Positions 3,101 to 32,620 of a stretch of 57,029 nt of DNA are shown piece by piece (position 1 is the stretch's first letter; each line of letters starts with the position of its first letter). The stretch lies in NCBI RefSeq assembly GCF_003144115.1, contig NW_020312029.1, positions 1 through 57,029 of the forward strand. The letters are read 5' to 3'. The position numbers and the translations under genes are program-made. The notes below the pieces were generated by a model that was not told where the DNA came from, ran no database searches, and was given only the letters and a program-made list of their open reading frames with translations. Source of the stretch: Tilletiopsis washingtonensis. Lineage: Eukaryota > Basidiomycota > Exobasidiomycetes > Entylomatales.

Positions 3101-4311
3101 AGAGACAAGCTGCGCAGGATGGTGGTCGTCGGGAGCAGAGGGGCGCGCGCCGCAGTAAGAAGCAAGCATCCGCGGCAACACGACGCGGACAAGCGGCCCG
3201 TGCGCGCGGCTGACTTAAGTACGCGGCGCGGCGCGTCTCCTGCATCCCGCGGCTCTGCCTCTCCGCCGCGTGGCTACCACACCGGCCCGCGTGGCTCCTG
3301 GCCGCCGCTGCGGCCCCTGCTTGCGCCTAGGACTACGTAGCCGCAGCGCGAACCTCACAGCGCGCCTACAAGAGCACACGAGCACTGCTGAGGGCTGTGG
3401 CGCCGCCGCGCATCTTGGCAGCTGGGCTTCCCTAGAGGGGGCTGAGTAAGGCCTGGCATGGCTCGTCAGGCGCAGTCACTCGCGCTGTCCGTCGAGACGT
3501 CGAGGGTAGTGGGCGGGGCTCCCGCCTTCAGCGCGCCAAGTAGCTGGTCGTGTTGGACACTCGGACACGTCTGAGCGGGCGCGAGCTCGCCATCACACGC
3601 GCTTGGCACCCGATGCGCCGCTTCGACCCCGAGGAGGCCGCGCTCACGCCTCCGCACAGGGGCGCAGCGCTACCCGACCAGCTCGGGCTATGTGTCTCCA
3701 AACTGGCACGCGCCGCATCATGTCGCAACACGAAGCGGCCGATGGTGCTGCCAGCAGCACTGGCCAGACCTGCAAGAGCTCGCACGCGGCGGCAGTGCCG
3801 GTGTTCCGATGAAAATTGTGCGCGCGGCGCGCCGCATCAATCCAGCGCACACAGACGGACGCGCGCGCTTGCAATTACTGCACGAGAACCGCCTTGCGAC
3901 TATTGGTGATGCCGCGAGGCGCCTCCGACACACTACAGCGACGCGTACGGCCTCGGTAGACGCGCCAGGCGCAGGCACGGCACGCGGCAGTGCTACCCTG
4001 TCCTCGGAGTGGCCCAGGGCACGGACGAGCCACACCACGTCACGCTGCCAGAGCACAGCGCAGCCATAGAACGCACAGCGCAGATGTAGAACGCGCAGCG
4101 ATTCCTGCAGCATCAACGCATATGCGCCGCATCTGCGTGACCTGACGGCCCGGGACGTCGCCGTGCGAGCGCGCGTAGCTCTCTTGCATGACTGGCCGCT
4201 GGGCGCGGCCTCAGCGCAGCGAGCTCGTCGAGCGCGACTTGATCGGCACGCGCAGCGAGAAGAAGAGCTCATGTGCATTCGATTCCGCTCTGTCTGACAG
4301 CCCTCCGCCGC
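174..4311. other. Subtelomeric gene-free region
   Basis: No gene can be supported between the telomere and the cyclase stop codon. Open frames on both strands translate to Cys-, Arg- and Ala-rich strings with no recognisable domain, and none chains through plausible introns. From about 480 to 2900 the DNA is less GC-rich than the genes and carries recurring short phrases. Examples are GCCAGCTTGCGTCGA at about 949 and 1362, GCCAAGCAGTG at about 1046 and 1397, and many GTTGC(T/G)CC words between 1560 and 1830. This suggests degenerate subtelomeric repeats. The stretch 3540-4070 has longer open frames but no homology I can name. Confidence 0.6.
2575..2850. repeat. Degenerate minisatellite, ~25-bp unit
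   Basis: A unit resembling GCCTCAAGACTCTCCCGCAC recurs in tandem with mutations. Clear copies begin near 2642, 2669, 2694, 2746 and 2770, several ending in TTGCACTCAC. The copies are too diverged for recent expansion. It lies in subtelomeric DNA without genes. Confidence 0.6.
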
Positions 4312-6186
4312 TCAGAAGACGGCGATGGCGTTGGGCGGCGAGCCCACGCCGCCGGGCACTGCGCGAGCGACAAGGCTCGAGATGAGCTAGTGCTGCGCAG
4401 GTGGTGTGCTGTAGGCACGCACCGTGGAGCGGCGCAGAGGTGAGGAAGAAGGAGTAGCGCTTGTGCTTCTTGCACAGCTCGCTGAGGCCCTCAAGGTTCC
4501 ATAGCTCGCCTGTGCGGCGTGCGCAGCGCGTCAGCGCGCAGAAGCAGGCGCGAGGAGGAAGGCGCGAGCGGCGCGCGGCGCGCCCAGACGCACCGATGGG
4601 CGTGCCCTGGTGCGCGTAGGCGGTCAGCGGTCGTTGCGATGTGCGGTTGGCCAAGGCTAGACGCACCCACAGCGATAGCAGCCACTCGTGAAGCATGACA
4701 GACTCTGCGCGAGGTGAGTGAGCCGAGATCTGGGTTGCACGCAGCGCGCGCCGCGACGCACTGCGGGGCGGCCAATTCTCAAACGCGACGGTGTCGCACG
4801 CCACGGCGCTGCGGGGAGGCGCGCGGTGCTGAGCTCGGCGGTCGGGGGGTGTGTACTGGCAGCGCACCTGAACTTGTTGACCCAGAGCCAGTCGAGCACC
4901 TCCTGGCTCTGCTCGAGGCCGATCGCCTCGCTCGACTTCTGGTGCGCGCGCTTCGCCTCGTCGTCGGCAGCCTCGTGCCACCTCACAAAGCCTGCGCGAG
5001 CGGTGTCAGCAGTGCAGCAGTCGACAGCACAGCAACGCACCCGTGCGGATGAGCAGCAGGTCGCCAGGCTGCAGCTCCGTGCCCTGCGCCTCGAGCGTCG
5101 CCTTGATCTCGGCGAGCGGCACGTCGGTCGATGCGTTCGGTGCCGGCGCGGCGCCGTCATGGTTTGCCTCCCACCAGCTCAGCCAGTCGACGAGCACGCC
5201 GCGGCCGGCAATGCCACCCGCCTGCACCCCTGCAGCGACGAGCTTGCGTCAGCTCATCGGCCTCGACTGCTGTGCCGCGAAGCCTCACACTTGTGGATGC
5301 CGTTGCGAAGGGTGCCGCTGTGCAGCTCGTCGTGCTTGAGGCCGTTGTAGTAGTGGCCCGTGCTCTGCGAGGGCAGTCAGACGAGCACGTCCTGCACGCC
5401 CGCTTCACTCGCCTGGTGCGCCACGTGTCTGCGACAGCGAGTGTCAGCCTCCGTCATCTTCTGCCGCGCCCACGCAGCGCACCTGAAGCTGTCCCACTGC
5501 GAGCCTGCAGCGCAGCGTGAGCAGGACGGAGGCGGAGGCGGCACCTAGGCGTCGCTCACCAGCCTGCGTGTTGAAGCTGACCTCGTCTGCACTCAGTGTC
5601 AGCGATTGGAGCAGCGAGCGAAGCCCTGACAGCAGCACTCACCATCGGTCGCGACTGCAGGACAGAAGTGGCCGCAGCAGGCTCAGCGCGGTGTCAGCCT
5701 CCGATGCTCGCTACGTCGACCTACCGAAGCCCAGCGGCTTGAGGTCGACCAGCTTGTGCTCGAGGCCCTTGCGCCCAAAGCCAGGAAAGTTCTGGGTGTG
5801 CGGCCGTCAGCTATTGTCAGCAGCAGCCGTTGGCTTGCCGCGCACCATGTTGTCGAGCGACCAGTCGAGCTGCGTGCGCTCGCCCGTCTGGCACTCTGCC
5901 GCCACGACGCGCCGGCAGTTGTCTGCCGTCAGGTAGTTGAGCGCTGCAGAGGCCGACTGGTCAGCTCGCATGTACGCATTTGGAATGCGACGACCGCTCA
6001 CTGCCGAGCTCGTCCTTGACGCCGTCCTTGTCGAAGAGACCCCTGAGCGTGCCCGCGTCAGCTGGCGCGGCTGCTGTGCGGCACGCCAGCGGCGCACCAG
6101 GCGCAGCCCTGCGGCATGCCCTCGACAGGCGGCAGCTCGGCAAACGTTGCGGGCAGCGCGGCAAAGTTGAAGGGCGCAGACGACAT
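4312..6186 (-). CDS. Cyclase family protein (PF04199, kynurenine-formamidase-like fold)
   Basis: This is a multi-exon gene on the minus strand. The start is the ATG at 6186 (MSSAPFNFAALP), followed by PPVEGMPQGCAW. The first intron joins this to GLFDKDGVKDELG, and a second joins to GTLNYLTADN. Together they reproduce the N-terminus of fungal cyclase-family proteins. Further exons encode SFNTQAG, YYNGLKHDELH, GIAGRGVLVDWLSWW and LQPGDLLLIRTG. The end reads GELWNLEGLSELC, KRYSFFLTSAPLH, an intron, then VPGGVGSPPNAIAVF and the stop. Members of the family hydrolyse or cyclise small aromatic or amide substrates, and the fungal branch is mostly uncharacterised. I estimate 330-350 residues. It is the first gene inside the telomere and is tandem (minus strand) with the 7-TM gene. 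The family is secure; the substrate is not known. Confidence 0.88.
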
Positions 6187-6812
6187 GCTGGGCCAGGGTG
6201 GTTGTCGGGAGGCAAGAGGCGCGCCGCACCGGCACCGGGGGCGGCATGTGCGTGCATGCGAGCCGCGTCCCACACGCTACGCCCGAGTGCGGGGCAACAG
6301 CAGGCCGCGGACAAGCTGGCGAGGTGAAGCTTGCACAGCGGTACACAATCATCTTGCAGCCGTCTTTTAAGACTGGCGTTGTTCAGCATGAGGAGGTCAA
6401 GCGCTGGGGCAGGTGTGCTGCCTTTCTCAGGGCTCTAGGTTGCGAAGACAGGACGCGGGGGCAAGGGTCCGTGCGCAAATCGGGTCGCGAATCGAGATTT
6501 CGGCCGCCACACGCCGCCGCCGCGAAGGCGGCACAGCAGACCTTGCTCCTCACCACCACCACCACCTCTCACCTGACGTCGGGACCCGGGCGCCGCACAG
6601 CACGGCGCTTCACACACTCTCCGCGGTGCGCATCGCAGTGCCAGCCTGCAACTGCACCACCGGCGGCCCTGCCGTTGCTGCTCGCGCCAGCGAACGCGAC
6701 CTCGGTCGAGCCCGGCGCCGCGCCAGGGCACTACTCCGCAGACCACACGCGACGGTAATGATACATGGCATTATATCGAGCAGGTGATGATGCAGGGGCC
6801 TCGATCTCGACG
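6187..6812. other. Intergenic region upstream of the cyclase gene
   Basis: This holds the cyclase promoter (read on the minus strand) and the 3' flank of the 7-TM gene. A short CAC trinucleotide run lies at about 6551-6566. No coding or RNA gene was recognised. Confidence 0.5.
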
Positions 6813-8342: not shown

Positions 8343-9673
8343 TGTGCTGTCAGGCGCGCGGATCCGGTATCACGAGGGTCAAGCTGCGCGGCGAGGGGCA
8401 GGAGCGGTCGCTGCAGGGTGGGAGTCGAGGTGGGAGCGACCCCCGGGTGCGTCTGGCCCGTTGCCTTTTGAGGCGGCAGTGGCACGAAGCCGGCTCGGCG
8501 GGCGGGCTGACCCGAGCGCTGTACATGAAGGGCGGTACTTTGCGTGTGCCCAGGTGCATCGGATGGCGGAGCGACGCATCACGCCAACGAGGCGACGCAG
8601 CCCCCCGCCGGCTCGGCGACTTGCAAGAACGTGCCATGGCGAGGCCCACAGAACAGCGTTCAGGTCTCCTCGGCATGCTACCGCTGGCTTGCGCCGCTCC
8701 GAGTGTGGGAAGACGGGGAGGGCGGCGCAGCGCGGTCAATCCCGACTCCGCGCGCTAATCGGCCTGTCGCCGTCCCAGCAAGACGGGCACCATCCCTGCA
8801 CGCCTACTGCAGTCGGTTCACTTGCACAGCACACGCTGCATGGGCGGAGACTGCTGAGCCGCTGCAGGCGCAGTCCACATCTGCCGAGTAGCGAGCGGCC
8901 GCCGAGGCACGTGTGCTGCACCACGCCCCTCTAGCGCACGCTGCTCGAGCTTGTCGCACGATGCCATGACATGGCCGATGTCCTGCCTGCGATACGTGTC
9001 TCGACTTGCCCCACTGACAGCAGGCTGGCAGCACTGCGGTCGTGCTGGCCACTCCGGTCAAGCTTCCAGTGCTGTGCCCCGCCCGAGATGCTGCATTCCG
9101 AGCCGCTGGACCACTGCCACTGGGGCGCTGCGCTCCCCACCCGCAGCCTTCGCAGGGACAGAACAGCGCCGGCTGGTGAAAGGCATGGAGCTTAACCTTG
9201 GCACGCCGGCGGCACCTGACTGCACGCTGGGTGCTGGCGCTTCCGCCGGGTGAGGCAATCGTGCATCTGTCGTGCCGCAGCACGCACTTGCGGCTGAACG
9301 TGCGGCGTGGGCGCAGCTCATGAATCGCCGAGGTGCGGAATCGCGAATTAGCGCGCATCGGGCACAGCGGCGGCGCGCGCGGCTGCGACCGGCCCGGCGG
9401 CCGACCTCGTGCGCCCAGCTGCACCCGCGCGTCAAGCTGCGTCGGGCCGTCATGCATCGGGGATGAATGGTGAGTCGAGAGAGGGTGGGGCCGGCTCCAA
9501 GCTAGCGCAACAGCACGCATGAAGAGTCGCCATGCGGGCCGTGCGCCGAGCCAGCACATGGGGCCGATAATAGCACGCAGCGGACTGGATGCTGCTGCTG
9601 CCTCCACCTCTGTTGCACGTGCCGCCCGCATGCCCGCCATCGTCCCGACCACCACCGCCAGATCCCGCTCGCC
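8343..9673. other. Divergent intergenic region, 7-TM gene / hemerythrin gene
   Basis: This 1.3-kb stretch should contain both promoters. Open frames here are Cys- and Arg-rich and do not chain into a recognisable protein. No clear TATA box or RNA gene was seen. Confidence 0.5.
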
Positions 9674-10656
9674 ATGGCCACAACAGTCTCGCAGGAGTAC
9701 GCCGAAGGTCAGCAGCGTTCTTCGCATCTGCGGCGCCTCGCTGAGCCCCGCGCGCAGGCGACGGCTACTTTCAGATCCGCTTCCTCATGATCCGTGCGCA
9801 CGAGACGCTCCTTAAGGGCCTCGACAGCGTCGAGCAGCAGGTCCGCGACGACCACAGTTGTGACCGTGCGTGCTGCCGGTGTGCCGCCCGAGGCCCTACT
9901 GACGCCACGGCTTCGTTGCAGTCGCCAATTGGCTGGGCTACGTCGACGCATGGGCTGCATGCGTGCATCACCACCACAGCATTGAGGAGAAGGTGGGCAG
10001 CCTGCAAGCGGCGCGCTGCGCAGGGGCTGACCTGATGTTGCCAGGTGCTCTTTCCTCTGCTGGAGCGCAAGGGCCTCGGCGTGCATGTAAGCACCGCTGC
10101 TGCGCATCGAGATCCCAAGCTGACCTGCCCTTTGACAGACGGAGCTAGAACAGCACGAGAAGCTGCACGCAGATCTCGAGGCGCTCTCCATACGCACGAC
10201 GGAGTGGCGCGCGAATCCGTCATCGTACAGCGCCGATGAGCTCGCGTCGCTACTGGCCGAGCTCGCGCCCAACTTCAGGCAGCACCTCGAGGAGGAAGTG
10301 GCGCACCTGACCCGCGAGCGTCTATCGCCGCAGGTGTCGAGCGACGAGCTCAAGGCGTGCATTGCTCAGCTCGAGGCCGAGGCGAAGAAAGGCGACCCCT
10401 TCGTCGCGCCGGTCTTCATGATGAGCCACACTGTAAGTCGGCGCGAGGCGTGGCTGATGCACTGTGCTGAGCCTCTCGCGGCTAGCCTCCGGCTCACAAG
10501 TACTGGTCGAATATGGGTGAGCAGCTCCCAGCACGTCGCCCGAGGTCTCAGCTGACGGCATCCTCAGGCTGGCTGATGTACCGCGTGCTCATCCCGGCGC
10601 TGTCCTATCGGCACGCCGGCTACTGGAAGTACTCGCCGGAGCCGCTGAACCTGTAG
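9674..10656 (+). CDS. Hemerythrin-like (HHE cation-binding) domain protein
   Basis: The start is ATG at 9674 in a good context (GCCATGGCC). Short introns join MATTVSQEYAEG to DGYFQIRFLMIRAHETLLKG, then CDLANWLGYVDAWAACVHHH, HSIEEK, VLFPLLERKGLGVH, ELEQHEKLHADLEAL, and finally NMGWLMYRVLIPALSYRHAG before TAG. The metal-binding pattern of the family is visible: His in RAHETL, HHHHSIEE with its Glu, and HEKLHADLEAL. The family uses a four-helix bundle with a di-iron or mono-metal centre for O2, NO or redox sensing and scavenging. I estimate about 215 residues. The gene converges on the O-methyltransferase with only 62 nt between stop codons. A role in the neighbouring pathway is possible but unproven. 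Confidence 0.85.
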
Positions 10657-10718: not shown

Positions 10719-12332
10719 TTACTCGGCTGGCCGGGCCACCAGCACCGTCTCGAGCGAGCCGAGGTGCTCGACACGCTCCAGCCGGAAGCCTGCGCGCTCG
10801 AGCAGCGCGCGGTACTCCATCACGGTGCGCTCCATGCCTCCGCCCAGCGAGAGCACCTGTATCGACGTCGACTGCAGAAACTCGGAGCTGTGCGGCGTCA
10901 CCACGAGGTCGCCGATGAGGAGCGTGGGCGAGCTGGCGCCGCCGGGCGCCAGCATAGCCTCGCGAACGTTGCGCAGAATCGCCACGACCTCGTCGTCGTC
11001 CCAGTCGTGGAGCACGTTGCGCAGCTGCGGCATGCTCGAGTCAGAGGCGCAGCAAGTGTGGCGTGAGCGCACTCACCAGGTAGTGCTGATGCCCAGCCGG
11101 CACCGAGCCGGGAGCGAAGAAGTCGCCGCCCACGAACGACACCCGGCCCTTCAGCGGCGATGCGAAGAGTGCCTGGCGCGGTATCAGCGCTGCAAAGCCT
11201 CACATCTGGCTGTGCGCTCACTTGTGCTGACTGCTCGACGGTCGTAGGCCGGTCGAACAGGACAAACTGCAGGTCTGGATAGAGGGAGCCGAGCAGGCGG
11301 GGCGTGGCACCCTGGCCGCCGCCGACATCCACTAGAGGTCCGCGGCCGAGCGCACCCCAGTCGAATTCTGCAGCACAGCGATTAGCCAAGATCGGCGTAG
11401 CCACAGCGGGACGCACCCGTGGCGAACGAGTCCGGAAAGGCGCTGTGCAGCTCGCGCATTGCCTGGCCCATGCGCTTCTCGCGCATCTGGTTCTCGGGCA
11501 GTGCCACATGCGCAAAGTAGTCGAGGTCCGTGTCGTAGGCAACCTGGTAGGCCGTGCGCTTCTCGCCGGCGCCAGCAGCCGCCGGCAGGCTCTCCGCGGC
11601 ACGCATGCCGTCGTCTCCGCTGGGAGCCATAGTGTCAGCCTGCGTCGTAGGACATGGGGCCGGATGCATCGCACATGAACGCAATGCCCTGCTGCAGGCT
11701 GCCGGGCCGGTCTGACCGCAGGAAGTTGGACAGCACGTTGTTGCGCACCTCGAGCGACCCGAACTCGCCGACTTCCTCGAAGATGCCCTGCTGCAGCACA
11801 ACGCGAAGTGCCACCTCTGCCGGCGAGACGATCAGCTCAAAATCGCTCCTGAAGCCAGCTATCACCCACTGAGGTAGGCCGGCCGCACTTTGGCACGCTC
11901 TGCCAGCTCGTGCGCTGTAACAGTCTCCTCTCCGACAAGATCGGCCAGGCCCCAGCTGTTGGCTGCGTGCAGCGCGCGCGCCTGGCAGTGTGACTCTGCA
12001 CGGCAGCTCAGCAGCGTTCTGAGGCGTACCCTTGGCTAGCATTCGACGCACCGGCGCGAGTGACCAGATACTGGGCGGGGTTCAGCGCACGCAGGATGCT
12101 GGAGGAGAGGCGCTCGAGCGCCGCAAAGTCGTCGAGGACTGGCTTGCTGGTGTCGGCAGCCCTGGTGTGGCGTGTTGAGCACATCCGCCGTTCATGCAGA
12201 CCCAGCTGCTGCTCACCTGCTGTCGAGGTCGTCTGCGATGCGCTGCATCTCCCGCACGATCGACCCCAGCTGCTGCTTTGCCGGCGCGCCCGAAACGGCC
12301 CGCCGTGCCGTTCCGCGCGGCGGCGAAAGCAT
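10719..12332 (-). CDS. SAM-dependent O-methyltransferase (plant caffeate-OMT type)
   Basis: A winged-helix N-terminal part reads KPVLDDFAALERL, then ALHAANSWGLADLVGEETV and TAHELAERAKVRPAYL, then the dimerisation-like EVALRVVLQQGIFEEV. The catalytic part has the SAM-binding loop PLVDVGGGQGATPRLL, FVLFDRPTTVEQ, and LRNVLHDWDDDEVVAILRNV with the catalytic His of the HDW motif. The C-terminus is FRLERVEHLGSLETVLVARP. At least six short introns interrupt it. The chosen start (12332, MLSPPRGTARRAV) is the first ATG opening the exon that ends IVREMQRIADDLDS; an extra upstream exon cannot be excluded. Members methylate phenolic hydroxyls of natural products (sterigmatocystin- and flavonoid-type OMTs). 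It is divergent from the A-T-TE gene, suggesting joint control and methylation of that product. Confidence 0.9.
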
Positions 12333-13419
12333 GGGCCGACTGCGCGCTGCACAACGCCAGGCTTGCAAAGAGGAAGTTCGTGCGATCATGGGCGTGGTAG
12401 GCAAAGCTTGTACGGCCAGGTTCCGAAGGGCTGCCGCACGTAGGGCGTCCAGGCGCTGGTGGAAGTGATTGCGAGGGAAGCACGTTGTGTCGCGTCCGTG
12501 ACCGTGCAACGTGCTACGGGCAGCGGCACATGCTGTCCGACACACCGGTCCGCCGTGCTGCTGGTGCTGCGCTCAGGACTGTGAAGCTGACCGGTCGGCA
12601 CTGCAAATCTCGCTCGGACGCTCAAGCTCAACCTCGGGCTTCTCACGGCCGCCGGTATCGCGCATCAAGCTCCACGCTGCGCCCTCGGCCAAACTGGCGC
12701 GGCGCTAAACGCGTGCCTCCCGCTAAGCACCGACAGCGCGGAAGTCGGGCCCGAGTAGGCGGTGCCATGCCAAATGACGTGCGACAGGGACGGCTGCTGC
12801 CGCTGCTTCCGCTCCACCACCTGCGCTCTCCGGGTTGCGTCCCGAATTAGCCTCGCGCTCTAGCCTCGCCAAGCGCAGCGGAGCTACAGGCGCTCGCGGA
12901 GATGGACGCCTGGCCCGTGCGGCGCGCCGGCGTCTTGGTGCGCATCGGGGCTCGCCTTACCGCCAGCGCGTCCTCCCGACAGCCGCATTCCGCACTCGCC
13001 CCGTCCGCCTCGTGCTTTGGCACTGCCGCACGTCGGCGTTAGAGGTTCCGCAGCTGGGAGCAACTCAGGGCACTGTGCGGCACTCATGAGGCAAAAAACG
13101 AGGCACAGCACGGCAGCGCGGAGGCAGGCCGAGGTGCTGACATGCCTGCTCAGCGTTCGAGCTGGCGTGGAGGAAGCTCGATGTGGGCACTCGCGCATGC
13201 CGCAAGGGCGCAGCCGCCGGCTGTCACCCCGCATGTGGGTTCCGCGCCGGTGCGGCTTCTCGACCGGGCGACGCAGGTGCTGCATGCTGTGAGACGCAGA
13301 CCCGGCCGTGCAGAATGATTCGCAGCGATAGGGGCCAGGTAAGGGTCGCCTTATATACCCGTCCTGCATCGACCCCTCTCTGCTTCGACCACTCTCGCTG
13401 CAGGCCTCACCGCATAGCC
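12333..13419. promoter_or_regulatory. Divergent promoter between O-methyltransferase and A-T-TE gene
   Basis: About 1.1 kb separates the two start codons, with no supportable gene between them. This head-to-head arrangement is a common way to co-regulate two pathway genes, so the region probably contains both promoters. The only core element I can point to is the TATA box at 13352 on the A-T-TE side. Confidence 0.55.
13352..13357 (+). promoter_or_regulatory. TATA box of the A-T-TE gene
   Basis: TATATA within GCCTTATATACCCG lies 63-68 nt before the ATG at 13420. This is a plausible core-promoter position in a genome where AT-rich hexamers are rare. Confidence 0.6.
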
Positions 13420-16400
13420 ATGACCGATGTCCTTGATCTCCTTCGGACTGCTGCGAGCTCTCCGCATGCCCTCACCTTCGTTGGCGCCCAACCACCTGAC
13501 GGCGCCGGCAGCGCCGCAGCTTCCTCCAGCTTTGCAGCGCAAACACGCTCGTACGATGACCTGCTCCGGTGCTCGCGAGGTCTGGCATCGCACCTCGCGG
13601 CTGCTGAAGGCACCAAGAGAGGCGACATCGTGCTGATCCACGCTGCCACAAGTCACTGGGTTGCGTTCGTAGCCTGGTGGGCGTGCCAGTGGCTCGGCGC
13701 CCTGCCTTGCCCGCTCCCGCTGCCGCATCCCGATCCGAACCGGCAACAAGCGGTCATCTCGCACCTCTCTGCGCTCTTCGACAAGCCGCTCGTTCTGGCC
13801 GCGAGGGACGACATGGCCTCGTGGGACGAGTGCGCCCTGCGAGTGACCACCATCGACGGCTTTCTCTGCCCGTCGGCGATCGACTTGCACGGCGAGGACC
13901 TACCTCTGCTCTCCCGCCGCGAGCACGATGTCGCAGCTCTTATGCTGACGTCTGGCTCCACTGCCTTGCCCAAGGTACGTTCCGCCTCCGAGACGAAGCC
14001 GCGTCCATTAGTGCTTACGCCTCTCGACCGCAGGCCGTGCAGCTGACGCACGCGAACATGCTAGCTGCCGTGCGCTCCAAGGCCGCTCGCCTGAACACGG
14101 ACAGCTCGACTCGCTACCTCAACTTCATTGCGCCGGACCACGTGGCAAACCTGACGGAGATCCATCTGGCCGCGATGCTCCACGGTGCCGCACAGGTACA
14201 CGTCCGATCGGCAGACATCATCGGCCGGCCTCTCCTGCTGCTCGAGCTCGTCGATGCCTTCGCGATCACGTACACATTTGCGCCGAACTTCCTTCTCGCG
14301 CAGCTGCTGCTTCGACTGGACGGCGAGCACAGGGACGGCACGCGCAGCAACACCACAGCGCCGTCCCTCCGCACACTCCGAGTCTTCGTCAGCGGCGGCG
14401 AGGCCGTGCCCCACCGCACGGCGGTGCGCTTCAACGAGCTCTGCCTCAAGCTCGGCGCAGCCTCCGGTCCGCTCGTTGCCGGCTTCGGCATGACGGAGAC
14501 GAGTGTGAGTCGCCATCACCTCGTTGACGCTCTGAATGATGCTCACCAAAGCGCCTCTTGCAGGCCGGATGCATCTATCGCGCTGCGGGCAGCCCTGCTG
14601 ACGTCGGGCTCGACAATGCGCCAGTCGGCCTCGCATATCCCGGCCTCGAGGTGCGCCTGCTCGCCGGCGACTATCTGGCCGCGCATGACGGCCTCGAGAC
14701 CGGCGAGCTAATCCTGCGAGGGCCATCGATCACCCGTGGCTACCTCGGCAATGCTGAAGCGAACGCAGAAGCATTCACTGCCGACGGCTGGTTCCGCACG
14801 GGAGATCGAGCGCGCATCTCCGCAGACGGAGTCGTCTCTCTGGTCGGCCGATCAAAGGAGGTGCTCAACATCAACGGCGTCAGCGTAGCCTGTGCAGACG
14901 TTCAGCGAGGCATCGAGGAGAGCCACATCGATGGCGTGCAGAACACCTTCACGGTCGTGTGCCCGTATCGGCCGGCGGACGCCGCGACCGAGTCCTATCT
15001 CGTCGCCTTCTTGCCGTCGGACCCAGCCAACGTGCTCGAGCCAGTGCTGCAGGTTGAACGTGCAGCGTGGCTCGCCGCAGGGCATCCACCGCTGGCCGTG
15101 CTGCCTCTCGACCGCAGAGAGCTCGGCAAGAGTGCACTCGGCAAGATCTCCGGCGCACGCATCGCTGGCGCTTTCGCTGCGGGCTTGTACAGAGACCTCG
15201 AGGCCGTTCTCCGGGAGGCGAAGCGACGTCGCCTTTCCGTGGAGAGCGCCAGTGCGAAGCCGCGCAGCGCATTCGAGACCGACATGGCCGCAGCGGTGCA
15301 GCAAGTCCTTGCCCTCGCCGACCCGCCTTCCTGCACTGCGAGCTTCGTCGAGCTCGGCTGCTCATCTCTCGCTCTTATGCGGATGCGCTCTGCGTTTGCC
15401 AGCATCCTCGGCCGGAAGGACTCGGACTTGCCCGTGACGCAACTCCTGCGGCATCCCTCAATCAGAGAGCTTGCCAAGAGCATGGCGTCAACATCACTCA
15501 TGACGGATGGAGCGAGCTCTGAGGAGCCGGCCGAGCCCTACGATCCCATCGTGCCGCTGAGCACGTCGGGGCATGGCACGCCGCTATTCCTCATTCATCC
15601 CGGCGTGGGCGAGTGCTTGGTCTTTCTGAACCTGGCCAAGCGCTTCCGCGGCGAGCGTCCGATCTTTGCGCTGCGAGCACGCGGGCTGGGCTCGGAGCCG
15701 AAAGACGTCGACGCCTCGGGTGCCTCACTGACCCCCTCCGGCTCTTTCGCACGCTTCGACGACATGTGCAAGGCGTATGCGGCCGCCATCGTGGCGACGC
15801 AGCCACGCGGGCCCTATGCGGTGGTTGGCTACTCTTTGTGAGCTTGCACTGCCCTTCCTTCTTCTTCCACTCACTTGCTGACTCTGACCTGCAGCGGCGG
15901 TGTCGTGGCGTTCGAGATCTGCAAGCTGCTCGAGGCACAGGGCCGCGATGTCAAGTACACCGGCCTTCTCAACATTCCGCCGCACATCAGCTGGCGCATG
16001 CGGCAGCTCGACTGGGACGAGATTGCGGTCAACCTGGCGCTGTTCCTCGGTCTCGTTCCCTCGGAAGACGTCGAGCCTCTGCGGCTGCACATCGCGGAGA
16101 AGAGAGAGCTGCGGCAGCTGTCGCCGGCAGCTCTGCACCCTCCAGACGGCGAAGGACACTCCCAGTCCGTCAAGTCAAACGCGTGCGCCAGGGTCGTCGA
16201 CCTGCTGCGCCAGACCGCTCCGCCGGCGCGCCTGCTAGAACTAGGTCTGGACGCTCGCGCTCTGCATCGCTGGATCGACGTCGCAGCAGATCTGGCACGT
16301 TCGGCGCAGGTCTATGAGCCGCAGGGCAAGCTCGCGTGCGCCGCCACCGTCTTCGTCGCCGTGCCGCTCGCCGGCCTCGGCACGCGTGAGGAATGGCGAC

Positions 16401-16549
16401 GCAATCATCTCGACGCGTGGCAGCAGTACGTCAACGGCCCGCTGCGCTTCGTCGATGTCGACGGTGCACACTACACGATGCTCGACGACGCTCACGTCGA
16501 GTCCTTCGCCGGCTGCCTGCGCAAGGAACTCAAGCTCGCCGGCGTGTGA
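13420..16549 (+). CDS. NRPS-like A-T-TE synthetase (atromentin/aryl-quinone synthetase type)
   Basis: Four exons (introns 13975-14033, 14505-14563, 15838-15894) give 984 residues, the usual size of this class. The order is adenylation (about 1-600), thiolation (about 620-700), thioesterase (about 720-984). Adenylation motifs seen are LTSGSTALPKAVQLTH, GFGMTETSAGCIYR, GELILRGPSITRGYLG, GWFRTGDRA, GRSKEVLNINGVSV and LGKISGARI. The carrier site is ELGCSSLALMRM with Ser for phosphopantetheine. The thioesterase nucleophile appears only after splicing: TT|C restores GYSFGG. The probable catalytic His is in VDGAHYTMLDD. No condensation or reductase domain is present. Known A-T-TE enzymes activate aryl-pyruvates and dimerise two of them to quinones, furanones or butenolides (atromentin, polyporic acid, microperfuranone). 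The segment ALPCPLPLPHPDP is typical of that clade. The actual substrate is not readable without alignment to a structure. Confidence 0.93.
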
Positions 16550-16764: not shown

Positions 16765-19346
16765 TCAGTCCGCACGCTTGTCGGCGTGGGCCGGCGGCAC
16801 CAGAGTCTCGCGACTTTCGTCGCCGAGCTGCATCAAGCCTTGCCGTTCGCCCTCGCCCGCACGCCCGCCCAGTCCCTCGTTCTGGGCCTGGCGCATGTTC
16901 GTGCCGCGCGATGCGGTTCGAGGCGTGGCGTCCTCCTCGTCGTCGGAGCCCTCCAGCGCGAACATGGTCGCGCCATCGCTCACTCCTGTGCGAGTGGTCG
17001 GTGCAGAGGACGGCGCCGCGCCGGCCCCGCCTTGCGGCCGAGCCCGCCCCTCCTCCTCGTCCGCCTCTCGGTCGTGATGCGGTCCGAACTCTGCATCGGT
17101 GGACTAGGGTCAGCACCAGTTAGAATGCGCTGCCGGAGCGTCACGGCCGCACCATCGATCTCAAAGTCTTCCGCGTCGAGGTCGTCGTCCTGAGCCAGCT
17201 CGTCGGACATAGACAGACGCGCGTTGCTGCCGGTCGGGCGCCAGACCCAGGCGATAGCAGCAAAGACTGCGAGCAGGGGAGTCAGATGCTGGACGCGCGC
17301 GATCGACGCAGCACGCACCGATGAAGTACACCGTGCCCAGCCAGCCGTCCAGCAGCACCCAGCGGTACGGCCATGCGCTGGCCGACGTCTCGCCGCCAGC
17401 CTGTGTGAACGCGACCGACGTGATGACGAAGCTGCGGCGCATGCTGTCAGCGCGCGAGCTTCTCTGCCAAGGCGCCGGCTTGTACGCACAATGCAAAGAT
17501 GGACACGACTGCGCCGAGCAGGATGCGGTACAGCTTGGTGAACATCATCTTCTTGTACGTCTGCTTGCGCGCAGCGAGGTGCTCGATCGTTGCGTTGAGC
17601 GCATGCAGCGTCCACATGAGGAAGGACGAGAGCGTGAATGCGAGCGGGAAGATGAACATGAAGACCCAGGCGCCGCCCGTGTCAATGAGGATCCTGCGGC
17701 GATGCTGTCAGTGCTGGCGCCCGGCTAGCGGAGGATCCGACAGTGCACCCACATGACGATGCCGATCGAGTAGAGCACGCCGCACACAAAGTGCACGGCG
17801 GTCAGCAGCTGCACGCGGCGCATCACGGGCCCGATGCTGGGCCGGACCACGGAGAGGCCCATCGAGACGCAGAGCAAAATCGCCAAACTCGCACTGGTCT
17901 TGGTGGCGTCGAGGATGCTCGTGAGCACGAGCAGGAAGCGCGCCATGCTCGTGACGCTGGCCTGGCCATCCAGCGACGCGATGCGCCAGAAGTCCATCAC
18001 GTGCGTGTCGAGATACCGGTAGTAGAGCCACTGCGTGGCGCTGGCGACGAGGAGCAGCGTCATGAGGGCAGAGATGAAATGCTGCACCATCAGTAGGCTG
18101 ACAAGAGGAAAGTCAGCGAGCAGAATGGCCTGCTTGGATACGAGACGCACTCGTCACGATGCTTGACGCAGAGATAGCCCCATGCGGCGCCGAGCAGGAT
18201 GTACAGGCACGTGAGGGTGAAGTAGAACTGCGCACATCGAGCTCAGCGCGTGCACCACGAGCGGTCGCGGGCGCTACATTTGACGCACCTGCAGCTTGGG
18301 CCACTCGCCCGCAGGGAGCTCGCCGCTGAACGCATTGCGGAAGTGGATGCGTGCGGTGAACGCCGATTCGGTCGATCCTGCCGTGACGAGGGGCACCGCA
18401 GCTGTACGAAGCACGCGGCAAGGGGCGCTTGTCAGGGGAGGCACGGGAGCCTGCGAGACCGCAACCCACCCGCACCAACGCAGTAGAATCCCGTCTTCGT
18501 CACGGCGTAAGTCTGCAGGCACAGTGTCTGTCAGCATCGTGGGTCCGCGGCGGCTCCGTGGAGCGTCGTGCCGAGGGAGCGCGCAGCACGCCATGGCGGC
18601 CGAGCACACGGCAGGCGCAGCTCACCGTGTTCTGACCGCTCTTCCCGTCGAGCTCGACACGCGTCTTGACGATGGTTGTGCCGTCGGTGGAGTCGCCCTG
18701 CACGAGAAAGTCGCCCTGCTGCTCTGCCTTGCACAGCCCCTGCGCAACTGCCTTGGCGGTGCAGATGTACGTCTGCAGCTGCAGGCGGCCACCAGGTTCG
18801 CGGTCAGTCGGGCGCACGCTGCGTTGTGCGACCTCGCTGCGGCACTCACTGGCCGATCGAGAAAGTCCTTCTCAAGCCCCGCCTTGCCCAGCTTCGGGAA
18901 GTCGTCGTACTCGTACACTATTGTGGCTACCGTCGCGGGACCAGGGGCGCTGAACTTGACTAAGGTCGCAGACTGGCGTCAGCAGCATGCGCAGAGAGGC
19001 GCACACACCAGAGCCGACGCCGAAGCGAGGCTCTCGCCCAAGGTTCTCTTGCTCGGCTGCTCATCGGCGGCCGAGTCGCACCGCCGCACGCGCAGCGATG
19101 AACGCTCTGAACATCTCCTCGGCTCGCCGGCGCGGTAGGACATTCGCCTCTCCCGCCGCGCATCCCCGCCGCCATCCACATTCGCCGCTCGAGCGCTGGC
19201 CACTCACTCTCGATCGCCGTGCCCGGGCCACTCCACATGCCCGAGCAGCTCTGGCGCAGCGGGTCCGCATCTCCGACCTCGACGGTGTAGGCGCACGCGC
19301 TGCGGGCCAGCAGGGCAAGAGCGAGGCCCGCCAGTGGCAGACGCAT
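16765..19346 (-). CDS. PTM1/TMEM87-like lung seven-transmembrane receptor family protein
   Basis: The start at 19346 begins a signal peptide (MRLPLAGLALALLARSACAY). A lumenal domain of several exons follows, including TVATIVYEYDDFPKLGKAG, VKTRVELDGKSGQNT and HFRNAFSGELPAGEWPKLQV. The family's 7-TM block comes next: FYFTLTCLYILLGAAWGYL, LLADFPLVSLLMVQHFISA, the signature SVVRPSIGPVMRRVQ, HFVCGVLYSIGIVM, MFIFPLAFTLSSFLMW, then WPYRWVLLDGWLGTVYFIGA. The tail FAAIAWVWRPTGSNARLSMS and AEDFEIDEFGPHHD matches PTM1/TMEM87 proteins. The last intron (about 17097-17157) is needed to join EDFEID to EFGPHH. The tail is acidic and ends PPAHADKRAD. Family members sit in Golgi or secretory membranes; their function in fungi is poorly defined. 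It is tandem with the zinc-cluster gene. Confidence 0.9.
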
Positions 19347-20108: not shown

Positions 20109-21881
20109 TCAGGCCTGCAGGGGCAGGCGCGGCTTGATGGGTGCCAGCTCGTCCTCGGCGCCCGGGGCCAGGCGCGGGAAGGCGGCACGGGCGGCCGTGG
20201 CAGCGGCGGGACCGTACAGCGCAGCGGCGACCGAGTCGTGCTGCGCTGGGCCGCCGGGGTTGGCGCGCGCCCGCTGCGGCAGGTGCAGCGCGAACTGCGC
20301 ACTGGACGCCTGGGGGTGCAGGAATGCGCCGGCGGTGTGCGCCGGCACGATGCCCGCTGCGCCGCCCGTGGCGCCCGTCGTCGACGGCGGGTGGTGCACA
20401 TACTCGGTGCCGAGAAGCGGCGTGCGCGGCGTGCTCGGGTACGAGCCGTCGGAGTGCAGGCGGTGGTGCGCCGACGAGTGCCCGGCGTACGAGCCGGAGC
20501 CGCCGAGGCCGGTCGACGACGGCAGCATGGGCGGCGAGAAGAGCGAGGCGCCGCTTGCGCCGGAGCCGCCGAGACGCGACGACTGCGCGGCGCTGCCGTA
20601 CACTGGCGAAGACACGCCGCCGGCGCCGCCGCCGAGGGACGGCAGCTGGTGCAGCGAGCCGTTCGAGTACAGCGATGGTGACGCCAGAGGCCGCGAGGCT
20701 GCCGAGCCGATGGGCGTCGACGCAGACCGGTCGTGGCCGCCCATCGAGTCCTGGAAGCGCTGCGGCTGCTGCTGCTGCTGCTGCAGCTGGTGCTCCTCGG
20801 CGAAGGTGCGGCGCTCGTAGCCACCGCTGCGCGGCTGATCGCGTGCGTAGATGTGCGGCGAGGACGACGTGTGGTGGAGCGGCGGTGCCGAGGCGGCAGA
20901 GAAGTGCGGCGAGCCGGCGAAGGCAGAGTTGTCCACGTCGCCGTTGCTGCCGTAGCCGCTCGGGCTGCCGCGAGCGAAGCTGGCGCTCGCGCTGTTCGAG
21001 TTGGAGGCGCCGCGGCTCGAGTCGTCGGCGCGGGTCGAGGCACCGTTCACGGGTGCGTAGCCCAGGGCGGCGCCGCCAGCGACGCCGGTGATGGTGGCAG
21101 CGCGGCGCTTGTATGGCCCGCGCTTGATGCCGCGCTTGCGCTCCTTGCGCGAGCTGTCCTGGCACGAGTCCGTGAGGCCGTACTTGACGCAGCGCGAGCA
21201 TGGCCGGCCCTCGTCGCACTTCTTGCACGCCTTCTGGCAGTTGATGCAGGCGTTCTTCACCTGCTTGCGCTTCGGGCGCGTCTGCATGCCGCCGTTGGCG
21301 CCGCCGTGCTGCAGGTGCTGGCCGCCGTTGACGTGCTCGTACGAGCTGTGCATGCCGTACAGCGCCTCGGGCGAGCCGGCGGCGTAGCCGTAGTGCTGCT
21401 GCGACGCGTTGCCGCCGCTGCCGTTGCTGTGGCTGTACATGCCGCCGTGTGTCGGTGCCGAGCTGGTACCCGGCAGAGGCAGGAAGCTCGACGACGTCGA
21501 GGTTGCGTAGACGCCCTGCTGCGGCTGCGCCTGCGATGCCGCGTAGCCGCCGTACGACGTCTGCGCCGCCGAGGTGTGGTGCTGCCCGGCGTACGTCGGG
21601 GCGACGCCGCCGTAGCTGTGCTGCTGGTGCGCCGTCAGAAGCGGCGCGGCGCCCGAGGCGGAGTTGTTGAACAGCGGCGATCCGTAGCTGCCGCCCTGGG
21701 CCGCGGCGGTGCGCTGCTGCCCGTAGCCGGTGCCGGCGCTGGAGGAGGGAGCCGGCTGCGTCGGTGCGTAGAACGACGACGACGCCGGCAGCGACGTGGC
21801 GTCCATGTGGCTCGAGTAGTGCGGCTGCTGTGCCGACTGCTGCTGTGCCCAGTAGCCGGTGTCGGAGAGAGGACGGGACAT
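20109..21881 (-). CDS. Zn(II)2Cys6 fungal transcription factor
   Basis: A single uninterrupted frame of 590 residues starts at MSRPLSDTGYWAQQQ. The first 190 residues are low-complexity (Gln, Tyr, Ser, Gly, Ala). The zinc cluster follows at about residues 200-235: CINCQKACKKC then DEGRPCSRCVKYGLTDSC. The six cysteines are spaced C-X2-C-X6-C-X5-C-X2-C-X8-C, as the family requires. A very basic segment follows directly (RKERKRGIKRGPYKRR), which should contact DNA and act as nuclear localisation signal. The remaining 330 residues are Ser/Pro/Gly-rich with a short Gln run (HQLQQQQQQPQRF). No fungal_trans middle-homology domain is visible. The start is supported by the lack of an upstream frame. 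A 4.8-kb gene-free region lies upstream. Targets are unknown. Confidence 0.9.
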   Translation of the reverse strand: MSRPLSDTGYWAQQQSAQQPHYSSHMDATSLPASSSFYAPTQPAPSSSAGTGYGQQRTAAAQGGSYGSPLFNNSASGAAPLLTAHQQHSYGGVAPTYAGQHHTSAAQTSYGGYAASQAQPQQGVYATSTSSSFLPLPGTSSAPTHGGMYSHSNGSGGNASQQHYGYAAGSPEALYGMHSSYEHVNGGQHLQHGGANGGMQTRPKRKQVKNACINCQKACKKCDEGRPCSRCVKYGLTDSCQDSSRKERKRGIKRGPYKRRAATITGVAGGAALGYAPVNGASTRADDSSRGASNSNSASASFARGSPSGYGSNGDVDNSAFAGSPHFSAASAPPLHHTSSSPHIYARDQPRSGGYERRTFAEEHQLQQQQQQPQRFQDSMGGHDRSASTPIGSAASRPLASPSLYSNGSLHQLPSLGGGAGGVSSPVYGSAAQSSRLGGSGASGASLFSPPMLPSSTGLGGSGSYAGHSSAHHRLHSDGSYPSTPRTPLLGTEYVHHPPSTTGATGGAAGIVPAHTAGAFLHPQASSAQFALHLPQRARANPGGPAQHDSVAAALYGPAAATAARAAFPRLAPGAEDELAPIKPRLPLQA

Positions 21882-22774
21882 GGTGCGAGGTGTCTGCTGA
21901 GGGAGAAGATGGGGATGAGCATGAGGTGCGGCGCTGGGCAGAGGTCATGGCGTCGGCAGCCGCAGCAGCATGTGGTGGGCCGGACGAAAAGCTGCCATCC
22001 CCACGGTGCCATTGCGATGGACTCGGGTCCGCGGCTCCATGGCCGCGCGAAGGAGCCGTCCGGAAAGGACGGCTTCAAGCAATCAGAGCGACCCGCCCGA
22101 ACGACGGCCGGGCGACGGAGCCAGCTGCGGCACGAAGATTTGGGCGAGCGCGAGGCTGAGGGGGTGGCGGTGAGGCGGAGAGCCGCGAGAGCTCGCCGCC
22201 GCGCACGGCGTGCCGTGCCTCGCGCGTGCCTGACGCGCCGCAGCGACCCCCCGCAGACCGAGGCCGGCCGACGTCCAAGTGCTGCCCCGGCACGGGGAGC
22301 CCCCTGTCACTCGGCCCGCGCAACCTTCCCGCGCCGCGACCAGCGTCGGGACAGAGCGGGCCGGCAGGTGCAGACGTGCTTGAGGAGCAGGCACCGGCCG
22401 CGGCGTGCTATTCTCGGCGCCGAGAGGCGAGGAAGCGCTACTCACACTCGGGGCGGGCGACTCGGTGCCTGTGCTGCGGCTGGCGGATGCGACGTCGTGA
22501 GCGGCGCGCGCGAGAGGCAGAGGCGAGGATGAAGGAGCGGCGGTGCGCACGGAGGAGGGCTGCGATGGACGAGTCGGAGGGAGAGCGGCGGGGGCCAGCA
22601 GACGGGGCCGAGCGGGCGGCGTGGGCCCTTAAGACGGGCGGAGGCGCGGAGCGCGGAGCACGGCGGAGCGGCGGAGGGCGGAGCAGGCAGCGGACTGCGC
22701 CAGGGCACGGCGCAGGGGCTGCACCCGTCCCCAGTCTGCACCTCTGCTGCAGAGGCAGCGCTCTGTCTCGCTTG

Positions 22775-26664: not shown

Positions 26665-28630
26665 CTACGCCGGTGTGGACGTCTCGCAGGCTAGAGCGGC
26701 TGCTGAGGCATCCACGTCGACGAGCCAGCAGCCCATGCCGCGCCAAAAGTGACGCTGGCGGGCGCCGCCGTTCCAGATCGGACACAGGCTCGCGTGAGAG
26801 GCGTCCTGCAAATGGAAGACCTCCCAGCGGTCGGGAGGTGGAAGCGCCGGAGGCGCCGGTGCGGTAGCTCGCGATGCAGGCGCAGCGAAGAGTGACTCCT
26901 CGTCTGGCACAGCATGACGCAGTCTGTTGGACAGCAGCGTCGCGGCACGCGAGAAAGTGTGCCAGAGCGCGCCGCTGTCCGCAGAGGACTTGGCAGAGAA
27001 GGCGACGTCCAGGCTGGGCGCGAGGTGCTGCTCGGGCAGGTGGAGCGAGTGCAGGCAGGACACTTGCTCGCAGCTGCCCGGATGGTACTGCGATGCGAGC
27101 GGCACGACGCCGTCGTTGGCGTACCAGGCTTCATGCTCATGCTCGGATGCGGCCGTCGCCAACTTCTCGTCGAGCTCCTCAAAGGCAGGCATCAGAGGCT
27201 GCTGCGGTCCGGGCGAGCTGTAGCCCGAGTCGTCGTGCGGACGCCTTGTCGCTGCTCGCCGCGAAGCGTCGAGGAGCGCATTGCCGGCACTGTGGTCGGA
27301 AGAGCCTGGGAAAAGCTCGGAGGGACGGGCGACGGAGAAGTCGAAGCGGCCCAGGAGGCGCGACGTCAGCACCAACGGCGCGGTCGAGAGTGTCCACTGG
27401 AACGCTGTGGTAGGCTGGTGCATGCGCGGCCGAGGTGCGCTCTCGCTCGTGCCGAGAGCCTCGACAGGCTCTGTCATGTACTGTTCGCAGGTGATCAGTT
27501 TCGGCGGGGCGAAACGTCGCATCGAGACTACGCACGCAAGCAAAGGAGCGGAACCAAGTCGGCGCATGTCTCCCTTGCTCTGTCCCGACGATCCATGCCT
27601 CGGGCTCCTCTTGCTCGCAGCGGGCACGCTCGCCCAGCGTGCAGTCCCATGGCGCGCAGTCGCGGCCCTCTGCCCATTCGCTGCGCCAGAGATTGCCCAG
27701 CAGAGACGGCAGTCCCCAGCCTGCGCGCCAGCTCCATCCCCGGCCAGACACACTCGGCGGTGCTTCTGCCTGCGCAGTGCTGCCAATGCTGCTGTCGACG
27801 AGCTCCGCATGAGATCGTGCACCTGAGAAGGCCCAGGCGTCGGCCTGTGGGTCGGGAAGGACGCGACGTGCAGCAGCAAAGTGCGCGCGCAAGAAGACGG
27901 CGAGATGCACCGTCTTGGCGAGCATGTCGCCGGCGCTCAGGAAGCGGACTGCAGGCGAGGGCGACGGCTGCTCTCCGAGCAGATAGACGAGTGGTGTGCC
28001 GCGCAGCGGCGAGGAGATCGTCGTGATGGAGCGGACCATGTATGCCGCGCGCGATGGCTCGCCTGCAGGCGTCTCGATCTGGAGCACGTCGTCGAAGAAG
28101 CCGGCGTTGAGAAGGCTGCGCAGCTTCAGGATCGTGGCGCCGCCGAGCGAGTGCCCTACGAGATGCACAGGCCGCTCCGCGCTCCATGCAGCGTATGCGC
28201 CGCCTTGCGGCGGGTACGAGCGACCCCACCGCCCATGACCGTGCTCCGCCGCATGCGCCGCGCCATAGTCGACGGTGCCGCCACGCAGCGAGTAGAAGAG
28301 CTCGCAGGCGCGGTCGTGTATGCTAGACACGGGGCCGATAGGCGCCCAGATGACTCGGCGCGGCGCCTGTGGGGGCGATCCGGGGTGCTGCGGCCGCTTG
28401 CCATCTGCTGCAGCCCTCTGCGCTCGTCTGTGCTGCTCACCCAGCTGCATCTCCACGGCGAACTCGCCCCACAGGAAGCTCGACGCCGCGCAGAGGAAGC
28501 CCTCCACAATGACGAGTGGCGCGAGCTCGTGCTCCTGCTCTTCGCGCGGCGGCGGCGGCGGCGCTGCAACGCCGCGAGACGGCCCGGCGCCTGCATCGCC
28601 TGCCGCCCACGGGCTGTGTGTGCCGGCCAT
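26665..28630 (-). CDS. Bacterial-type (staphylococcal-lipase-like) alpha/beta-hydrolase
   Basis: Two exons (28630-27536 and 27480-26665, intron 55 nt with an ACTGATC branch) give 636 residues. Visible family features in order are PLVIVEGFLCAASSFLWGEF, RRVIWAPIGPVSSIHDRACE, TVDYGAAHAAEHGHGRWGRS, the nucleophile elbow VHLVGHSLGGATILKLRSLL, ITTISSPLRGTPL, then in exon 2 EAWYANDGVVPLASQYHPG and CWLVDVDA. The 'GPVSS-DRACELFY' and 'DYGAAHAxxHGHxRxGR' blocks are typical of the large lipases first known from Staphylococcus and Bacillus, which have fungal relatives. A Ser nucleophile is clear. No signal peptide is visible, so it may be intracellular. It probably hydrolyses acylglycerols or esters. A poorly conserved spacer of about 120 residues (around residues 280-400) interrupts the core. 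Confidence 0.82.
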
Positions 28631-28938
28631 GCCCTCGTCCAGCGCTGGGTGTGGCGCAGTCCTGGGGCGTTGCGAGTGCGCCTGGCGGCTGCGTCACGCT
28701 GCTGCCGATGCGCTGTGGCCGATGTGCTGCGGTCAGGTGTGCGCGTCTCGCGGCACGAGTGCGCCGTGCGGTGCTGAGCTGTGCGGTGCTTTGAGGTGAT
28801 GTGGTCGCAATGCAGCCTGTCGCCGACGCTGACGAGCGTGCGCGAAGATCGTAAGGTTTGCGCGGCCCGGACTTAACGGCGGCAAGCTGATGATGCGGAG
28901 CGCCGCCGGACACATCCGCGGGATCGCCGCCGCAGATC

Positions 28939-32508: not shown

Positions 32509-32514
32509 TATAAG
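32509..32514 (+). promoter_or_regulatory. TATA box of the carboxylesterase gene
   Basis: TATAAG within CTACTTATAAGCAGC lies about 107-112 nt upstream of the ATG at 32621. A CT-rich leader typical of strongly expressed fungal genes follows. Confidence 0.6.
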
Positions 32515-32620
32515 CAGCGCTGCTCGCCGCGTCTGCCGCTGCTCTCGCCATCACTCCCTGCTGTGTGCATCCCCCACTCTCCTTTCATTCCCTCCGTCTC
32601 TCCTCTGGAAACCTGCTACG

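Follow-up and report, generated by a model that had tools for sequence, protein, structure and literature searches.

In mushrooms, terphenylquinones and their derivatives are described to act as pigments, to reduce iron and to modulate bacteria living nearby (PMC10316625), and the synthetases behind them combine adenylation (A), thiolation (T) and thioesterase (TE) domains. Among basidiomycetes, the account in PMC10316625 separates a clade I (CorA, HapA1 and HapA2, PpaA1) from a clade II of atromentin synthetases such as NPS3. The p-terphenyls of Streptomyces are encoded by the ech, dat and ter clusters: DatA and EchA are described as converting phenylpyruvate to polyporic acid, datA-datB-datC being a three-gene cluster, and in the clusters of both enzymes the genes for a synthetase, a nicotinamide adenine dinucleotide (NAD)-dependent dehydratase and one more small enzyme follow one another (PMC9379647). 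Two further fungal clusters, as described, include O-methyltransferases. The alf cluster (allantofuranone) comprises the A-T-TE enzyme AlfA, the dehydrogenase AlfC, the O-methyltransferase AlfD and the dioxygenase AlfB, with AlfD acting downstream of the A-T-TE step on the reduced dimer and leading to terferol (PMC12105029), whereas in the cor cluster (corticins) of Terana caerulea, corA adjoins three putative O-methyltransferase genes, corB-D (PMC9603100). Here we analyse a contig of the exobasidiomycete Tilletiopsis washingtonensis (NW_020312029.1), taken in its entire length of 57,029 bp as the window, with a GC content of 67.5% in a genome of 18.7 Mb and 32 contigs. It contains a predicted A-T-TE synthetase gene, of the non-ribosomal peptide synthetase (NRPS)-like type, divergent from a predicted O-methyltransferase gene (Table 1), a pair that probably serves a polyporic-acid-type dimerisation of phenylpyruvate followed by O-methylation of the product.

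The first-pass annotation had read this locus as a complete A-T-TE enzyme facing an O-methyltransferase across a gap of 1.1 kb, at 10-16 kb from a telomere. The coordinates and motifs of both predicted gene models are borne out by the splice models and by Pfam, the divergent starts lie 1087 bp apart, and an array of AACCCT occupies positions 1-169, which agrees with the distance of 10-16 kb. Removal of three GT-AG introns of 57-59 nt each leaves 984 open codons in the synthetase, along which Pfam finds AMP-binding (6.8e-45), PP-binding (3.3e-06) and Thioesterase (2.5e-23) in this order, and no condensation domain. The GYSFGG motif of the TE is formed only after intron 3 has been spliced out, and GAHYTM is present as well. 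Residues K185, E340, D423, R438 and K536 of the A domain, S610 of the T domain and S766 and H959 of the TE are retained by the enzyme and do not vary in the alignment with bacterial homologues; these are the residues expected to be catalytic in the family. Among solved structures, the A domain comes closest to McyG and the module 6ulx/6ulw, whose substrates are presumably keto or aryl acids. The enzyme belongs almost certainly to the A-T-TE family, where its sequence would make it a distant, apparently intact member. Three ACPS-type (phosphopantetheinyl-transferase) matches, one of them with an internal stop, are found in the genome.

In the methyltransferase model, 414 amino acids (aa) are open once seven GT-AG introns (49-56 nt) have been removed; an in-frame alternative start at 12389 would give 433 aa and an intergenic gap 57 bp shorter. 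The protein keeps the loop VDVGGGQG, which binds S-adenosylmethionine (SAM), and the histidine of the HDW motif (LHDWDDDE), and no NCBIfam model matches it at 1e-5. Its solved relatives include bacterial natural-product O-methyltransferases, the best match in the PDB being MmcR (3gwz). MmcR and 6c5b are alike to it in family, SAM loop and HDW motif but distant (best E-value of 4.1e-32), and the N-terminus of the window protein is longer, since the aligned part starts at its residue 77-79, as compared to 22-50 in 3gwz/6c5b-type chains.

The substrate code of the A domain, read by motif, is V222, A223, E227, F267, V304, G306, G335, A343, G344 and K536. The conservation alignment comprised 15 bacterial homologues (L034 was left out), in which the same positions read V (I in one), A, E, F, I/V, G, A, A, G and K, the first six window residues being identical or conservatively replaced in all 15. 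Both a first Val and a last Lys, our family test, are found in the window enzyme. Position 5 of the code (GrsA position 299) was mapped through the SGGEA motif and the GrsA letters. A Val in first position is described for enzymes acting on alpha-keto acids (PMC10316625, PMC5238615), whereas at position 5, Ile or Val has been associated with phenylpyruvate and Asn with 4-hydroxyphenylpyruvate, as in the atromentin synthetases (PMC10316625). An aromatic alpha-keto acid is very likely to be the substrate and, given the Val at position 5, phenylpyruvate is the best guess, and a probable one. The code V-A-E-F-I/V is shared with the ech/dat/ter-like bacterial loci. Clades I and II, likened here by their descriptions, share with the window enzyme the A-T-TE layout (964 aa in HapA1, 925 aa in HapA2) and a code that starts with Val, with either Ile/Val or Asn at position 5, where the window has Val (PMC10316625). 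Moreover, corA and hapA1 are described with three predicted introns each, the same number as in the window gene (PMC10316625, PMC9603100).

A scan of bacterial genomes with the A-T-TE sequence gave 460 confirmed relatives, the best 80 of which were kept as loci. Full-length or near-full-length homologues, reaching the last residues, occur in 16 of these 80 (L021-L036), all of them actinobacterial (Streptomyces, Kitasatospora and Frankia), with tblastn identities of 34.9-38.4% for the whole enzyme and 40.7-44.5% for the TE alone. In the remaining loci the best matches fall in the A or A-T part, and the TE query found only one further locus, L051, and weakly (26.8% over 138 residues, 9e-06). As a test of TE subfamily, the window TE reaches 221-248 tblastn bits with the TEs of all 16 bacterial enzymes versus at most 56 phmmer bits with any solved TE. 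Genes flanking the 16 synthetases were assigned to single-linkage groups of crudely called open reading frames (ORFs), with misses possible. A neighbour in the short-chain dehydrogenase/reductase (SDR) family of L021 was found in 12 loci, a neighbour in its SnoaL-like family also in 12, and one or both in all 16. Comparison with TerB and TerC in the PDB was made for the two proteins of L021, and gave matches to TerB for the SDR (4.9e-173) and, for the SnoaL-like protein, to the TerC that takes part in terfestatin biosynthesis (1.2e-57). Because each of the 16 has a neighbour of the TerB or TerC family, these loci look like p-terphenyl clusters. The ech, dat and ter clusters of Streptomyces share the A-T-TE layout with the window gene, a likeness drawn for EchA and DatA from their descriptions. 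Unlike them, the window locus has introns, a stand-alone methyltransferase and no TerB- or TerC-like neighbour of the synthetase among the 30 window ORFs scanned with Pfam; these had been selected from 126 with a coding score of at least 6, a sample that may lack genes which are short or fragmented.

Other genes near the bacterial synthetases include one of tryptophan-halogenase type in L031 (9190-10782, minus strand), one for a 666-aa protein containing an aminotransferase in L036 (8805-10805, plus strand) and a type I chorismate mutase in L024 (10589-11032, plus strand), a set that suggests halogenation and precursor supply. A separate observation concerns Asn793 of the window TE (codon at 15971-15973, by exon arithmetic), which reads LLN where the TE of EntF reads LLD, with what we take to be the usual Asp of the triad. 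Asn is found at this position in all 15 aligned bacterial enzymes, and the TE part of the list of invariant residues holds no Asp, so that the usual triad Asp may be missing there throughout the A-T-TE family.

The most likely pathway would start with phenylpyruvate from ordinary amino-acid metabolism, which would be converted to its adenylate in the A domain, loaded on the carrier Ser610 and passed to Ser766 of the TE. The TE (Ser766/His959) would hold this first unit while a second one is loaded, and would then join the two by C-C bond formation of the Claisen/Dieckmann type, so that a terphenylquinone like polyporic acid, or another diaryl core related to it, is set free. Finally, the SAM-dependent O-methyltransferase would cap a hydroxyl of the core, giving, for example, a betulinan-A-like dimethoxyquinone. 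For the dimerisation, this proposal draws on the family and the code; for the methylation, on adjacency and precedent. That the methyltransferase acts on the A-T-TE product seems to us a reasonable expectation, whereas a terphenylquinone core, rather than a furanone, butyrolactone or dioxolanone, is about an even call.

Several observations weigh against polyporic-acid-type dimerisation and methylation. The window enzyme keeps 198 positions that are invariant among the 15 bacterial homologues but departs at 87 others, including three close to code residues (W216F, A224N, A335G), one in the P-loop (G182A) and one next to the carrier serine (G608C). In a midpoint-rooted tree of A domains (48 rows: the window and those 47 of the 80 loci in which coverage exceeds 400 residues), it joins just outside a group in which the 16 bacterial A-T-TEs stand with 26 other A domains (support of 87/88). 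On the other hand, a branch with 97/100 separates those 26 from the window enzyme, and constraining all 17 A-T-TEs to one group loses 5.2 log units, a grouping that the tree does not show but that the approximately unbiased test does not reject (p-value of 0.279). The end branch of the window enzyme measures 1.65, and the program warns that this long branch meets others. With regard to the substrate, CorA given Asn at position 5 is reported to have retained its specificity, so that the code at this position is not strict; swaps at the same position relaxed specificity in NPS3 and PpaA1, not in CorA (PMC10316625). In the surroundings, the 30 scanned ORFs include nothing like a TerB, an AlfC, an aminotransferase or a dioxygenase, so that no fuller cluster is claimed. 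A TerB query had no match in the genome either, a weak negative; the search for TerC covered the window ORFs. Finally, a methyltransferase homologue lies near the A-T-TE gene in only 1 of the 16 bacterial loci.

A first alternative, possible although clearly less probable, is that an enzyme of the same family closes the dimer differently, to a furanone, butyrolactone or dioxolanone, and that the methyltransferase acts on an enol or a carboxylate. All these cores are described as products of A-T-TE enzymes of the family, in a TE-specific manner (PMC9047271), and the window TE is just 41-45% identical to the TEs from loci with neighbours of the TerB/TerC families, so that it does not reveal which core is made. 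Even so, each of the 16 full-length relatives has a TerB- or TerC-family neighbour (TerB-family in 12), and the TE signatures common to the bacterial relatives are largely kept in the window, which favours the terphenylquinone, with a bias from the reach of the scan.

A second alternative, to which we give comparable, limited weight, is that the two genes are chance neighbours in a subtelomere and that the methyltransferase serves a different pathway. It would fit with the scanned flanking ORFs, among which no further clear pathway gene was seen, and with the bacterial loci. At E-values up to 1e-5 in tblastn, the methyltransferase query matches 2 of the 80 loci including their fetched flanks (L032 and L068), and since only L032 belongs to the 16 A-T-TE loci, the pairing is not general in bacteria and seems to be only weakly echoed there. 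In L032 (Frankia sp. CIT1), a gene at 8571-9989, beside the synthetase, fuses a SnoaL_2 (TerC-like) domain to a Methyltransf_2 domain, the latter 31% identical to the window methyltransferase over 339 positions; the fusion, which counts in favour of the main proposal, may be both dehydratase and methyltransferase in a p-terphenyl pathway. Against mere chance stand the divergent starts with a single gap between them, the failure to find a second copy of either gene in the 18.7-Mb genome by searches that score best candidates only, and the O-methyltransferases described in two fungal A-T-TE clusters (PMC12105029, PMC9603100). In these searches, the A-T-TE query gave 14 matches, namely three to its own exons and 11 weaker ones elsewhere, all within the A-domain part, and the eight matches of the methyltransferase query are all its own exons. 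PF00975 matches the genome twice, once in this synthetase; the other thioesterase-type match lies on contig C17 (514143-514475, 7.7e-11).

A third alternative keeps the dimerisation and changes the substrate: the A domain would take 4-hydroxyphenylpyruvate or indole-3-pyruvate and give a dimer of atromentin or asterriquinone type. We regard it as somewhat less likely still. The pocket is altered at three positions (W216F, A224N, A335G) with respect to all 15 homologues, and position 5 is described as contributing to specificity without strictly setting it (PMC10316625). However, the window has Val304 where the atromentin synthetases are described with Asn (PMC10316625), and all 15 homologues carry Ile or Val. 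A decaying or silent synthetase that yields no product is improbable, since the long A-domain branch and the unusual P-loop (GSTA) and carrier (LGCSS) motifs stand against 984 open codons, GT-AG introns and retained catalytic residues.

The locus had also been put forward as a candidate new aryl-dimer pathway. The family, the apparent intactness of the enzyme and the idea of a possibly methylated dimer of aryl keto acids stand; the newness of this kind of pathway does not, as an A-T-TE enzyme with a clustered O-methyltransferase is already described in alf (PMC12105029) and cor (PMC9603100). Both clusters resemble the window pair in this respect; unlike alf, no counterpart of AlfC, AlfB or AlfS is found among the scanned ORFs, and cor has three methyltransferases versus one in the window. 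Thus, the pairing and the chemistry are already known in fungi, whereas the host lineage and the strongly divergent enzyme are possibly new. The hosts described for clades I and II belong to the Polyporales, Agaricales and Boletales (PMC10316625), unlike the present one. A single short marker, a 92-aa thymidylate synthase exon of the genome, also points to a probable basidiomycete: its best PDB match is 2aaz (Cryptococcus, 145.9 bits), followed by 1ci7 (Pneumocystis, 121.1 bits), while a 5.8S rRNA search gave no match. None of the papers listed by a literature search, with most subscription journals outside its scope, describes an A-T-TE product for a smut- or yeast-like basidiomycete, and a paper on Tilletia lists NRPS-like clusters, with no A-T-TE of this type named in the portion consulted (PMC9172201). 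A bolder and rather unlikely proposal is a third line of basidiomycete quinone/furanone synthetases, distinct from clades I and II of the mushroom-forming fungi, in which a remodelled A pocket and P-loop would lead to a core or substrate of no described A-T-TE, through a minimal pathway of synthetase and O-methyltransferase at a chromosome end. In any case, an A-T-TE enzyme in this compact, GC-rich genome would extend terphenylquinone-type chemistry to a lineage for which the search found no described case, and a sequence this divergent might be of use in rooting the family.

Table 1. Features of the 57,029-bp window of Tilletiopsis washingtonensis (positions in the window; gene models are predicted).
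Feature	Position	Strand	Details
PF04199 cyclase-like exon	5009-5248	-	5.4e-05
Hemerythrin-like match, sub-threshold	10136-10552	+	0.037
O-methyltransferase (Methyltransf_2)	10719..12332	-	414 aa; predicted splice model; Pfam 3.6e-31
Methyltransferase exons	12332-12217, 12161-12052, 11995-11870, 11816-11675, 11619-11417, 11367-11222, 11172-11077, 11024-10719	-	
Intergenic stretch between divergent starts	12333..13419	.	1087 bp; GC 0.67; putative promoter
A-T-TE NRPS-like synthetase	13420..16549	+	984 aa; predicted splice model; exons 13420-13974, 14034-14504, 14564-15837, 15895-16549
Val304 codon, code position 5	14388..14390	+	column I or V in 15/15 bacterial homologues; by exon arithmetic
Carrier-domain Ser610, phosphopantetheine site	15365..15367	+	identical in 16/16 aligned sequences; PP-binding at 585-647
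TE nucleophile Ser766 in GYSFGG	15833..15835	+	identical in 16/16 aligned sequences; Thioesterase at 682-976; intron 3 from 15838
GOST membrane protein	17728-18153	-	Pfam
Zn2Cys6-domain ORF	20112..21944	-	PF00172, 2.2e-04; 21.7 bits vs cut-off of 21
Lipase-like protein	27182-28693	-	Pfam
Carboxylesterase	32207-34645	+	Pfam
Housekeeping-type genes (Utp11, WD40 protein, ANTH and I/LWEQ ORFs, DDB1/CPSF-type protein, PF07757 methyltransferase)	beyond the carboxylesterase		

Regarding the surroundings of the pair, the contig is probably a detached chromosome end with its wider context cut off, since a telomere-type array is reported for the left end alone. Searched for motifs, the intergenic stretch showed nothing besides a TATATA located 68 bp upstream of the A-T-TE start; CGG-N0-12-CCG matches 16 times per strand, a count made with no shuffle control and not meaningful at 67% GC. 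The Zn2Cys6 ORF is a possible candidate for a regulator of the pair. Between the telomere and the pair, an apparent many-exon gene (4214-6382, minus strand) contains the PF04199 cyclase-like stretch. Elsewhere in the window, a 52-bp unit is present as two perfect tandem copies at 40919-41022.

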